Below are positions 8,129-63,421 of a stretch of 64,000 nucleotides of DNA, piece by piece. Every line of letters begins with the position of its first letter. Position 1 is the first letter of the stretch. This DNA is from Actinokineospora inagensis DSM 44258 (GTDB taxonomy: Bacteria > Actinomycetota > Actinomycetes > Mycobacteriales > Pseudonocardiaceae): contig NZ_AXWW01000048.1 in assembly GCF_000482865.1 (NCBI RefSeq), forward strand, positions 1 through 64,000. Reading direction: 5' to 3'. The position numbers and the translations under genes were made by a program. The notes beneath the pieces are model-generated. The model was not told the DNA's origin, searched no databases, and worked only from the letters and a program-made list of their open reading frames with translations.

Positions 8129-8206
8129 TCACCCGATCAAGCGGTTGACCTCCGCCCGGCACGTGGTCCAGACAGGAGCCCGCCCACCCGGGGCTCGGGG
8201 GCCCAT
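8129..8206 (-). CDS. Putative 25-aa leaderless peptide in intergenic element, copy 1
   Basis: ATG at 8206 begins five bases after the TACCGT hexamer, the spacing expected for a leaderless transcript. The 25-codon ORF reads MGPRAPGG... and ends ...VNRLIG. Its counterpart at 63344-63421 is also exactly 25 codons (MGDRPPGG...VNRWCG), with MG, R, PGG and VNR at the same positions. Several differences between the two are synonymous (CGA/CGG, CCT/CCC, AAC/AAT). Function unknown. The conservation could also act at the DNA or RNA level, because the 25.9-kb copy is frameshifted. Confidence 0.35.
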   Translation of the reverse strand: MGPRAPGGRAPVWTTCRAEVNRLIG

Positions 8207-8284
8207 TCCTGACGGTAGCGCGACCGCCGACCTGTCAAGAGGGCACAAGCGCGACCTGTGGACAACCGCTGCCCTTGTGGACAG
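8129..8284 (-). repeat. 156-bp dispersed intergenic element, copy 1
   Basis: Read on the minus strand: CTGTCCACA (8284-8276), TTGTCCACA (8265-8257), TTGACA (8238-8233), a 15-base spacer, TACCGT (8217-8212), CAGGA, ATG (8206), a GGGCCCCCGA/CCCCGGGTGGG block, GGTCAACCGCT, and TGA at 8129. All distances (19, 27, 48 and 59 bases from box to box, box to hexamers, and box to ATG) are identical in the copy at 63266-63421. TTGTCCACA is the actinobacterial DnaA-box consensus. The element lies between two tandem arrays in the rpe-ribD gap. Confidence 0.8.
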
Positions 8285-8410
8285 CGGCTGGCCCGGACGA
8301 CCGCTGGCTTGGGCAATCGTCTGGACAGCGGCTGGCCTGGACGATCGCCGGCCTGAACAGCGGCCAGCCTGGGCAACGGCGACCTGGACGACCGCCAGTC
8401 TGGGCGGCCG
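8276..8410 (-). repeat. Degenerate array of about 16 bp units upstream of ribD
   Basis: About nine units resembling CCTGGACAGCGGCTGG, as read on the plus strand, recur mostly every 16-17 bases (one interval is 11, one 14). The GGAC/GGGC cores are derived from, or ancestral to, the reverse complement of the DnaA-like box. The array abuts the upstream end of element copy 1. Beyond it, to the ribD start at 8611, I see no further gene and no FMN riboswitch. Confidence 0.55.
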
Positions 8411-8610
8411 TCGGGTGGAAGCGGATCCGGCCGGATGACTGGCGGCCAAGGTGACGTGGTGTGGACGGACGCCGCCGGAGCGGACCGGTGGGCACCCCGC
8501 AACGCGCCGACAGCCGTCGGCTACCAGTGGATCCCAGCGTCCCCCGCCTGACCGACCGGCAGTATTCGGCCCGGTGCGGTCACCCCGCGGTCGGCTGGGA
8601 GACTGGCCGG

Positions 8611-9630
8611 GTGGAGGACAGCCTGGCCGCGGCGATGCGGTCCGCGGTGGTGTTGGCTGAGCGGGCGCGGGGGACGACCAGCCCCAATCCGCCGGTTGGT
8701 TGTGTCGTTCTCGACTCCTCCGGCACCCCCGTCGGTGCAGGCGCGACCCAGCCCCCTGGTGGTCCGCACGCCGAAGTGGTGGCCCTGCGACAAGCGGGCG
8801 AGCGGGCGCGCGGTGGCACTGCCGTCGTCACCCTTGAGCCCTGTGCCCACCACGGCCGTACCCCGCCCTGCACCGACGCGTTGATCGCCGCAGGGGTGAA
8901 AAGAGTCGTCTACGCCGTCGCCGACCCCAACCCCGTCGCGTCCGGTGGTGCCCGCACCCTGCAAGGCGCCGGGATACAAACCGAAGGCGGCCTGCTCGCC
9001 GACGAGGTCACCAAAGGTCCCCTGCGGGCCTGGCTGCACTACGTCCGCCACGCCCGCCCGCACGTGACTTGGAAGTACGCGGCAACCCTGGACGGGCGGG
9101 TCGCCGCCGCTGACGGGACCAGCCGGTGGATCAGTTCCGAGGTCTCCCGCGCCGAGGTGCACGAACTCCGCGGGCAGGTCGACGCGATCATCATCGGTAC
9201 CGGGACCGTTCGGGTGGACGACCCCGCGTTGACCGCTCGTGCCGCCGATGGAACACCTGGGGCCCGGCAGCCGTTGCGGGTTGTCGTGGGCTCAGGTGAT
9301 CTCCCCGAAACCGCCAGGGTGCTCGACGGCAGCGCCGAGACCGTCCGGGTGCGCAGTCACGACCCGGCCGAGGTGCTGGCCGTGTTGCGCGACCGGGGGG
9401 TCGTCGACGTCCTGTTGGAGGGTGGGCCGACGGTGGCGGGGGCGTTCGCGGGGGCCGGGCTGGTCGACCGGGTGCTGGCCTACGTCGCGCCGACCCTGTT
9501 GGGGGCCGGGCCTGTGGCGTTGGGCGCATCCGGCGTGTCGACCATCACCGGCGCGCACCGCTACACCGTCGAAGAGGCCACCATGAGTGGACCGGACGTG
9601 CGGATCTCCGCGGTCCGGGCGCGGAACTGA
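8611..9630 (+). CDS. ribD: Bifunctional pyrimidine deaminase/reductase
   Basis: A 339-aa protein from GTG 8611 (MEDSLAAAMRSAV). Upstream in-frame codons back to 8461 are excluded because they encode sequence unlike the family. The N-terminal deaminase domain shows HAE at 53-55 and the zinc signature PCAHHGRTPPC at 77-87. The C-terminal domain (about 150-335) is the NADPH-dependent reductase, with WKYAATLDGRVAAADG, IIIGTGTVRVDDP and LLEGGPTVAGAF. It catalyses the second and third steps of riboflavin synthesis from the GTP cyclohydrolase II product. It is first in a tight operon: 12 bases with GGAGGA separate it from ribE. Confidence 0.96.
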   Translation: MEDSLAAAMRSAVVLAERARGTTSPNPPVGCVVLDSSGTPVGAGATQPPGGPHAEVVALRQAGERARGGTAVVTLEPCAHHGRTPPCTDALIAAGVKRVVYAVADPNPVASGGARTLQGAGIQTEGGLLADEVTKGPLRAWLHYVRHARPHVTWKYAATLDGRVAAADGTSRWISSEVSRAEVHELRGQVDAIIIGTGTVRVDDPALTARAADGTPGARQPLRVVVGSGDLPETARVLDGSAETVRVRSHDPAEVLAVLRDRGVVDVLLEGGPTVAGAFAGAGLVDRVLAYVAPTLLGAGPVALGASGVSTITGAHRYTVEEATMSGPDVRISAVRARN

Positions 9631-9642
9631 GGAGGAACACCG

Positions 9643-62270: not shown

Positions 62271-62710
62271 TGCAACTGCAGCAGATGTACCAGGAGATCA
62301 TCCTGGACCACTACAAGAACCCGCACGGCCGCGGCCTGCGCGACCCGTTCGACGCCGAGTCGTTCCAGGTCAACCCGACCTGCGGCGACGAGGTGACGCT
62401 GCGGGTCCGCCTCGACGGCGACCAGGTCGCCGACGTCTCGTACGACGGCCAGGGCTGCTCCATCAGCCAGGCGTCCACATCGGTGCTGACGGATCTCGTG
62501 GTGGGCCGGTCGGTGGGCGAGGCGTTCGGCAAGCTCGACGCGTTCGTCGAGCTCATGCAGGGCCGCGGCACCGTCGAGCCGGACGAGGACGTGTTGGAGG
62601 ACGGCATCGCGTTCGCCGGTGTCGCCAAGTACCCCGCCAGGGTCAAGTGCGCCCTGCTCGGCTGGATGGCGTTCAAGGACGCGGTCGCCCGCGCCCAGGG
62701 AGGATCCTGA
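62270..62710 (+). CDS. sufU: Zinc-dependent sulfurtransferase SufU
   Basis: A 146-aa IscU-like protein that accepts persulfide from SufS. ATG 62270 overlaps the sufS stop. The three ligand cysteines are in NPTCGDEV (about residue 41), GQGCSISQAS (about 66) and RVKCALLGW (about 128). The Asp in CGDEV completes the zinc site. The insertion between the last two cysteines, absent from IscU, is characteristic of SufU. Confidence 0.95.
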   Translation: MQLQQMYQEIILDHYKNPHGRGLRDPFDAESFQVNPTCGDEVTLRVRLDGDQVADVSYDGQGCSISQASTSVLTDLVVGRSVGEAFGKLDAFVELMQGRGTVEPDEDVLEDGIAFAGVAKYPARVKCALLGWMAFKDAVARAQGGS

Positions 62711-63081
62711 TGGAAGAAGTCACCCGGGGCGCCGCGGGCATGCCCGACCAGCTCCCCCGCGCCGACATCGCCACCCTCGACGACGTCGAGGAAGCCATGC
62801 GCGACGTGGTCGACCCCGAACTCGGCATCAACGTCGTCGACCTCGGCCTGGTCTACGACATCCGCGTCGAGCCGGACAACACCGCCACCCTCGACATGAC
62901 GCTGACCTCGGCCGCCTGCCCGCTGACGGACGTGATCGAGGACCAGACCCGCTCCGCGCTGACCGGCAACGGCCTGGTGGACGACTTCCGGATCAACTGG
63001 GTGTGGATGCCGCCCTGGGGTCCGGAGAAGATCACCGAGGACGGGCGGGAGCAGTTGCGCGCCCTCGGCTTCACGGTGTGA
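62710..63081 (+). CDS. sufT: MIP18-family Fe-S assembly protein SufT
   Basis: A 123-aa protein of the DUF59/MIP18 family. ATG 62710 overlaps the sufU stop (TGATG). It has the conserved AMRDVVDPELGINVVDLGLVYDI, SAACPLTDVIEDQ and WVWMPPWGPEKI. SufT helps Fe-S maturation of particular targets. It is the last gene of the operon and is followed by a terminator. Confidence 0.95.
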   Translation: MEEVTRGAAGMPDQLPRADIATLDDVEEAMRDVVDPELGINVVDLGLVYDIRVEPDNTATLDMTLTSAACPLTDVIEDQTRSALTGNGLVDDFRINWVWMPPWGPEKITEDGREQLRALGFTV

Positions 63082-63091
63082 CGCTCACCTG

Positions 63092-63121
63092 AACGGCCCG
63101 CCACCTCGGTGGCGGGCCGTT
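63092..63121 (+). terminator. Terminator of the suf operon
   Basis: AACGGCCCGCCAC (63092-63104) pairs perfectly with GTGGCGGGCCGTT (63109-63121) with a CTCG loop. TT follows. Confidence 0.85.
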
Positions 63122-63265
63122 TGTGCGTTCCAGGGGCGGGAGCAGCGAGTCGGCGAGGCGGTCGCGGGTGGCGGCCGGGAGGTCGGTCATGCGGAGGGGC
63201 GGGGCCGCCGGATCGCGCCACTCCGTGCGGCGGCCGACGCTGGATCGCGCCACTTCGTCGCCGAG

Positions 63266-63421
63266 TTGTCCACATCCTGCCCGGTTGTCCACAGCCCGCG
63301 GTCCCCCTCTCTTGACAGCCGCCGTTTCGCGATAGCGTCAGGAATGGGCGACCGGCCCCCGGGTGGGTGGGGTCCCGGTGTGGGGCGGTCGGGGTGGCCG
63401 GTCAATCGCTGGTGTGGGTGA
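63266..63421 (+). repeat. 156-bp dispersed intergenic element, copy 3
   Basis: TTGTCCACA at 63266-63274 and 63285-63293, TTGACA at 63312-63317, 15-base spacer, TAGCGT at 63333-63338, CAGGA, ATG at 63344, GGGCGACCGG/CCCCCGGGTGGG, GGTCAATCGCT, and TGA at 63419-63421. The length and all spacings equal copy 1 (opposite strand). It lies between the suf terminator and the mug gene, with a repeated GGATCGCGCCAC (about 63210 and 63242) just upstream. Confidence 0.8.
63344..63421 (+). CDS. Putative 25-aa leaderless peptide in intergenic element, copy 3
   Basis: A 25-codon ORF with ATG five bases after TAGCGT, beginning MGDRPPGGWG and ending VNRWCG. Length and the MG, R, PGG and VNR positions match the ORF at 8129-8206. 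There is no ribosome binding site apart from the CAGGA itself, in keeping with leaderless translation. Function unknown. Confidence 0.35.
   Translation: MGDRPPGGWGPGVGRSGWPVNRWCG

Follow-up and report, generated by a model that had tools for sequence, protein, structure and literature searches.

A dispersed intergenic element combining paired DnaA-box-like sites with a promoter-like site in Actinokineospora and other Pseudonocardiaceae

Element copies in the window

The first 64,000 nucleotides of contig NZ_AXWW01000048.1 of Actinokineospora inagensis DSM 44258 (forward strand; hereafter designated the window; contig C41 of the source genome G000, 7.28 Mb) contain three intergenic sites at which a first-pass annotation had proposed paired DnaA-like boxes driving a promoter and a micro open reading frame (micro-ORF). 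We found that these sites are members of a large family of non-coding elements of about 130–155 bp each. The layout described for them is present at all three: the two boxes start 19 bp apart, TTGACA starts 27 bp past the start of the second box, and a 15-nt spacer is followed by TAnnnT, CAGGA, ATG, and the block CCCCGGGTGGGyGGG (hereafter designated the C/G block). Copy 1 (8138..8285, minus strand; profile match, 85.5 bits), as read from the sequence, has its boxes at 8276–8284 and 8257–8265, TTGACA at 8233–8238, TACCGT at 8212–8217, ATGGG from 8206, the C/G block at about 8179–8193, and GGTCAACCGCT at 8140–8150. Copy 2 (25880..26029, plus strand; 84.6 bits), likewise read from the sequence, has boxes at 25884–25892 and 25903–25911, TTGACA at 25930–25935, TACGTT at 25951–25956, ATGGG from 25962, and the C/G block at about 25975–25989. 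The corresponding parts of copy 3 (63261..63411, plus strand; 86.7 bits; element and boxes read from the sequence) lie at 63266–63274 and 63285–63293 (boxes), 63312–63317 (TTGACA), 63333–63338 (TAGCGT), from 63344 (ATGGG), at about 63357–63371 (C/G block), and at 63400–63410 (GGTCAATCGCT). A GGTCAAyCGCT block claimed for all three copies is exact in copies 1 and 3 and replaced by GGCAAGTGCT in copy 2, and the claim that copy 2 reaches its stop codon at almost the same length does not hold, since its ATG frame has 78 codons and those of copies 1 and 3 have 25.

Two further copies in the window had been overlooked. Copy 4 (20674..20790, minus strand; 66.6 bits with family model R3) lies between whiA and gap (Pfam) and belongs to a second subtype, type B, the first three being type A; it carries a degenerate box CCGCCCACA at 20779–20787, a second box at 20760–20768, TAGACT at 20716–20721, GGGG at 20706–20709, and a GCCCCCCGGGAAGGGTGGGGGC block at about 20682–20704. 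A decayed element (56178..56281, plus strand; 26.1 bits with R3) retains two boxes 19 bp apart (56182–56190 and TCATCCACG at 56201–56209, read from the sequence) and a TACGCT-like −10 hexamer, and has no TTGACA at the expected position. TTGACA-N15-TAnnnTCAGGAATGGGC, with three mismatches allowed, matched the window three times, each without a mismatch, and never in 100 shuffled sequences; the box pair with up to three mismatches gave five matches for 0.04 expected, the three reported sites scoring best.

Copy number and distribution

In the source genome, the promoter-to-ATG pattern (TTGACA-N15-TA-N3-TCAGGAATGGGC) with up to three mismatches gave 106 matches, and its reversed control none. The matches listed for two profile models amount to at least 239 copies, which occupy 154 loci on 60 of the 97 contigs (106 of 111 matches listed for one model and at least 150 for the other, 17 being common to both); this number is a lower bound because it sums only the matches listed for each model. 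The profile searches scored the best 150 candidates per genome in the source genome and the genus, the best 16 in the family, and the best 8 in the class. The type A core model found copies in seven of 16 Actinokineospora genomes, from 111 down to a single one, and a cross-species model that includes the boxes matched all 16 (2 to at least 150 per genome) as well as 87 of 200 Pseudonocardiaceae genomes in 27 of 46 genera (E ≤ 0.001). Three complete genomes of the genus gave 137, 37, and 38 matches with the family model. Among 200 family genomes, the promoter-to-ATG pattern with at most one mismatch was found in the source genome only, nine other genomes of the genus and 190 others of the family giving no match; it is from the profile models that the broader distribution is known. 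The search for further copies in the genome and its relatives, which the first-pass annotation had named as its own check, therefore gave a strongly positive result, and the dispersed family that it claimed is borne out.

Among 394 genomes of the class, the family-wide model matched 53 at E ≤ 0.001, and matches of at least 45 bits were limited to three genomes, all of the family (G000, G045, and G033). Outside the Pseudonocardiaceae, no match among the candidates scored exceeded 31.6 bits; the C/G block is missing from most of these rows, and a small number of weak matches (about 20–24 bits) cover most of the model. Single exact matches of the promoter-to-ATG pattern in Myroides and Peribacillus (L029 and L031) were taken as chance.

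Two subtypes of the element

Type A runs in the order box 1, 19 bp, box 2, 27 (sometimes 26) bp, TTGACA, 15 nt, TAnnnT, CAGGA, ATGGGC, and the C/G block. In a set of 50 copies, for which one mismatch in TTGACA was permitted, neither TTGACA nor the TA of the −10 hexamer varies. Type B, the predominant form in the family search, runs in the order box pair, CCGGTAGACTGG, CGGGG, and CGCCCCCCGGGAAGGGTGGGGGC, as seen in 44 distinct copies of the source genome, from which one match without a recognised −10 was left out; it has the −10 hexamer TAGACT only, with neither a −35 hexamer nor a start codon. Both subtypes share a G two bases ahead of the −10 hexamer and a G-run at the predicted RNA start, followed by the block of C-run and G-run; the first ~40 nt are conserved in both, and the 3′ part is variable. 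Mixed A/B forms occur near rpe in two relatives (G201 and G203), and the consensus varies by species, as judged by eye from at most six copies per other species.

Besides these shared parts, GTTGATC(A/T)TG stands ~45 bases past the −10 hexamer in most of the type A copies that were read from four other species (L033, L034, L035, L036, and related loci). The type A copies of the source genome carry GTCAAG in its place, and in several of its type B copies a similar sequence, TGTTGATCTTG or TGTCGATCTTG, precedes the −10 hexamer. This may be an additional protein site.

The DnaA-box pair

The boxes match the actinobacterial DnaA box, as the first-pass annotation had stated, TTGTCCACA being listed as the high-affinity DnaA box of Streptomyces coelicolor and Mycobacterium tuberculosis in an excerpt of PMC4285127. 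The region downstream of the source genome's own dnaA (its dnaN side recognised by eye) also contains TTGTCCACA and TCATCCACA, so that the element boxes are of the host's own type, as would be expected of a DnaA titration or control locus. Perfect TTGTCCACA occurs 10 times in the window for 0.35 expected, six times within elements and four times in a ~35-bp tandem array that ends in the decayed copy.

With a match in at least 8 of 9 letters required, the two boxes occur together in 49 of 50 type A copies found by BLAST and, in loci fetched by the core pattern alone, in 14 of 17 type A copies; controls at off-positions averaged 0.007 and 0, respectively. Of these 67 copies, 63 have both boxes, and in every one of the 63 the spacing is 19 bp; between box 2 and TTGACA, two different distances occur (54 and 9 copies). 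When several pairs were possible in a type B copy or a family row, the pair nearest 19 bp was taken; on this basis, type B spacing is 19 bp in 32 copies and 18 bp in 3, the full pair being missing in 9 of 44, and the 35 family rows show 19 bp in 24, 20 bp in 5, 18 bp in 3, 16 bp in 1, and no pair in 2.

Conservation at one site, with gain and loss at others

An element lies antisense between cydA and cydB in 4 of 27 family loci tested, which belong to two genera (L110 and L120; L115 and L117), and part of cydB lies nearby in two more (gene names assigned by eye from translations). An alignment of three of the four loci shows that mainly the boxes, the −10 hexamer with CTGG (TA-nCTGG), GGG, and the C/G block have been kept, the sequence between them differing between the two genera. 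The earlier claim of selection is thereby supported at one orthologous site. Copy 1 is located near rpe, and four of the 30 rpe neighbourhoods compared gave a match (G000, G201, G203, and, in truncated form, G204), always antisense to rpe; among 30 whiA neighbourhoods, a clear copy was found in the source genome only, with two weak matches in G201. The conserved cydA–cydB site, together with the mostly empty rpe and whiA sites, indicates that copies can be old at one site, and yet sites are gained and lost.

Genomic placement

Gene contexts are approximate, the genes having been predicted by a codon-usage script. After removal of loci fetched twice, 116 matches remained, of which 14 without a predicted gene on one side were skipped; 99 of the 102 judged copies are intergenic, and the other three fall within one spurious-looking 4.5-kb ORF of L150. 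Of the 53 independent regions, 36 have a co-directional upstream gene and 17 a co-directional downstream gene, and 21 regions are convergent as against 2 divergent, which speaks against the proposed promoter feeding neighbouring operons. The occupied gaps are long (median, 1014 bp). The flanking genes are diverse, 181 Pfam families being found in 93 proteins with none in more than three among the 25 most frequent families listed, and a driver of one particular gene family was rejected for this reason.

Replication polarity was analysed in three complete genomes with 120 listed matches of at least 42 bits out of 212, nearby same-strand matches being merged, the lengths of two genomes being rounded, and the terminus being assumed opposite dnaA. 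Loci oriented with the fork numbered 22 of 28, 23 of 34, and 27 of 45, a weak bias that could stem from gene orientation; a role of the KOPS type (FtsK-orienting polar sequences) was therefore rejected.

Reading frame, promoter, and RNA fold

Among 67 copies, the shortest ATG frame has 12 codons and, in four copies, no stop is reached within 199; no codon-position pattern was seen in this frame, and in other species ATG is changed to GTG or, in a few copies, is missing. The micro-ORF of the first-pass annotation is thus not supported; together with the missing start codon of type B, the unconserved frame led us to reject a micro-ORF or leaderless gene.

A promoter in type A is plausible but unproven. 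The usual spacer between the −35 and −10 hexamers of promoters read by sigma-70 or SigA is 17 bp (16–18 bp), and it is because the type A spacer falls short of this that the assignment goes no further than plausible. As for the RNA, the loop between the invariant C and G runs of type B is 4–6 nt long, as a hairpin would allow, and no compensatory change was found at the flanks of the C/G runs in the 75 parsable rows out of 79; a hairpin at the C/G block is possible but unproven. Rfam 15 gave no match in the window or in 16 related loci, nor did a search of the surroundings of copy 3 with the threshold relaxed to E ≤ 1.

A possible DnaA sink or sensor

Our favoured reading, to which we assign a probability of about 0.4 from the sequence features above, is that the element is a DnaA-binding, probably transcribed non-coding element of the Pseudonocardiaceae that serves as a chromosome-wide sink or sensor of DnaA. 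DnaA would bind the box pair (both boxes on the same strand; spacing, 19 bp in type A and mostly 18–20 bp elsewhere), and the bound DnaA would gate the synthesis of a short untranslated RNA that begins at the neighbouring start site. Hundreds of box pairs would jointly form a replication-coupled sink or read-out of DnaA, the sites doubling at each fork passage, and the transcript, short and rich in G/C, would act in cis by marking or changing the occupancy by DnaA and would not serve as an mRNA. Titration of DnaA on scattered boxes has been reported for Escherichia coli, as stated in a passage of PMC12371093.

Several observations weigh against such a role. With 15 bp between TTGACA and TAnnnT, type A has a shorter spacer than is usual in promoters of the sigma-70 type; in type B, the −10 hexamer is present with its G two bases upstream, but a −35 hexamer is not. 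Folding hardly beats that of shuffled sequences (mean z, −0.74 for type B and −0.17 for type A), and RNAalifold gave no stable consensus fold for the type A alignment, single folds disagreeing with one another. The gap between the boxes is ~10 bp, whereas E. coli DnaA favours boxes 2–3 bp apart according to an excerpt of PMC11317965. Moreover, E. coli DnaA boxes accumulate near oriC (a passage of PMC12371093), and no such enrichment was seen here, clustering around the origin being not significant in the three complete genomes (Kolmogorov–Smirnov p, 0.084, 0.205, and 0.738; 28, 34, and 45 loci). Finally, 26 of the 30 rpe loci are without the element (the next gene not being located in 10 of these), and, as copy number ranges from one or few to more than 200 among relatives, any general role in replication must tolerate large changes.

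In an extended form, which we consider improbable, the spreading unit would have become an initiator-counting system: a DnaA switch wired to its own RNA start would tie nearby transcription to the DnaA level at well over 200 places across the chromosome, and fork passage through the elements would time the next initiation, while the G-run, as an R-loop or quartet, would hold the unit open, tune DnaA occupancy, and drive homogenising gene conversion.

Alternative explanations

An intergenic repeat without a role for the host, of the type of repetitive extragenic palindromic (REP) sequences or miniature inverted-repeat transposable elements (MITEs), is on the unlikely side. Spreading or homogenised by copying or gene conversion, it would carry the boxes and the promoter-like site as its own machinery or as baggage, and the sharp differences in copy number between species, the species-specific consensus (by eye, at most six copies per other species), and the many empty orthologous sites (e.g., 26 of 30 at rpe) would follow from such a history. 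Copies lie between unrelated genes and often in tandem arrays (repeat periods, about 180, 231, and 265 bp), and near-identical copies occur at different places with flanks clearly less alike: two copies in G201 (L042 and L048) are identical from box 1 to beyond the GATCATG motif within similar but diverged flanks, and L149 holds two near-identical copies with unrelated flanks. From such copies and arrays, transposition and gene conversion cannot be told apart. On the other hand, five copies examined share no terminal inverted repeats, the inverted repeats of at least 10 nt being different and one copy having none, and the conservation at the cydA–cydB site in two genera points to selection. 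Plasmid and phage collections gave no match with one type A and one type B query, nor did IMG/VR with two exact patterns, and a phage or plasmid origin was rejected on these grounds. No transposase occurs among the 25 most frequent of the 181 families in the 93 flanking proteins, a count that involved no genome search for REP-associated tyrosine transposases.

A module like the G-quadruplex (G4) at pilE of Neisseria gonorrhoeae, which has a small-RNA promoter (abstract of PMC3547852), seems distinctly unlikely. Transcription from the G-run would here open a guanine quartet and provoke gene conversion, which would explain species-wide homogenisation and the tandem arrays, both of which are present. 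Indeed, a G-run stands at the predicted start, and the motif GGG-N1-2-GGG-N-GGG is found in 44 of 44 Actinokineospora rows (L028 matching only further along) and in 27 of 35 family rows. The three-run core is intact in type A, but some type B loops, e.g., GGAGA and GGTGA, interrupt a G-run, so that a strict quartet is not maintained in part of type B; in addition, the C-run complementary to the G-runs is equally conserved, and the pilE abstract makes no mention of DnaA boxes. In both systems a promoter start, in the element a predicted one, falls within a G-rich, potentially quartet-forming stretch; they differ in that the sequences are unrelated, that pilE is one locus as against more than 200 copies here, and that paired DnaA boxes are found here.

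It is very improbable that the copies are a multicopy family of small-RNA genes acting in trans with the boxes as a cell-cycle regulator. The promoter-like site with its G two bases before the −10 hexamer and the conserved first 40 nt of both subtypes would suit such genes; the variable 3′ part, the lack of an Rfam match in the sequences searched, including one copy at a relaxed threshold, and the lack of compensatory changes beside the C/G runs and of excess fold stability would not.

Very improbable, too, is transcription punctuation at 3′ gene ends, whereby DnaA or the G/C block would halt read-through between convergent genes. The excess of convergent over divergent regions and the intergenic position of nearly all judged copies agree with it, but tolerated insertion between convergent genes would give the same pattern, the occupied gaps are long for this, and no T-run follows the C/G block in the copies read. 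Promoters of leaderless micro-ORFs, as the first-pass annotation read them, are already refuted as a general reading by the varying frame length, the absent codon-position pattern, and the GTG or missing start codons of some other-species and all type B copies, even though, in the type A copies of the source genome, ATG roughly coincides with the expected start of the RNA.

Relation to known systems

E. coli datA, DARS1/2, and scattered DnaA boxes are loci of DnaA titration and activity control, and in Streptomyces, clusters of DnaA boxes outside oriC occur at few loci. The former resemble the element in being many non-coding DnaA boxes outside oriC that double at fork passage; here, in contrast, the boxes lie within a repeated unit with a fixed promoter-like site and the C/G block, the gap between them is wider than in E. 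coli, and clustering around the origin is not significant. The Streptomyces clusters share the TTGTCCACA box but are not hundreds of copies of a unit with a promoter-like partner. REP sequences, bacterial interspersed mosaic elements, and MITEs are alike in being short, intergenic, present in many copies, and specific to a species in consensus; unlike them, the element shows no terminal inverted repeats common to the five copies examined, keeps its box pair and −10 hexamer at a fixed distance, and has been retained at one site in two genera.

No description of the element was found among the top-ranked papers of the open PubMed Central literature. Its parts are of known kinds (DnaA boxes outside oriC and dispersed intergenic repeats); what is new, as far as could be seen, is the fixed unit together with its copy number and its range across the family. 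If DnaA binds the box pair, a whole bacterial family would have extra initiator sites that are countable, variable between species, and often absent at the orthologous place, and the long-debated idea of initiator titration would become directly testable in relatives with few or more than 200 copies; deletion of the cydA–cydB copy would be a further direct test. If the favoured reading is true, the element would represent a new class of conserved, probably transcribed non-coding elements, without an Rfam match, in a family of antibiotic producers.

Tandem arrays and neighbouring genes

Tandem Repeats Finder located two arrays of ~35 bp with DnaA-box-like sites at 55561–55815 and 55893–56191 (plus strand), which lie 5′ of the decayed element, run into it, and contain four perfect TTGTCCACA between 55909 and 56190; the stretch 55561–56191 may be a dense DnaA-binding locus. 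The same program located a 15-bp array immediately 3′ of copy 3 (63416..63575, plus strand). Such short arrays start right after the G block or the 3′ end of the element, also in L119 (about 1400–1530, minus strand; 16 bp) and L030 (about 7000–7590; ~50–60 bp, by eye), and their position looks as if the 3′ end seeds repeat expansion. The two A. terrae copies in L030 (6843–6910 and 7589–7649) are identical from the boxes to ATG, one being without part of the C/G block.

A small gene of genus g8, recognised by eye as macro-domain-like, is flanked or overlapped by two divergent element copies (L098, 1377–1610, and L099, 1501–1757). In genus g37, the element stands beside a gene resembling N-acetylmuramoyl-L-alanine amidase (by eye; L094 and L114, around 1500–1630), in a setting that, judged by eye and by synteny, resembles the parB-side neighbourhood of oriC.

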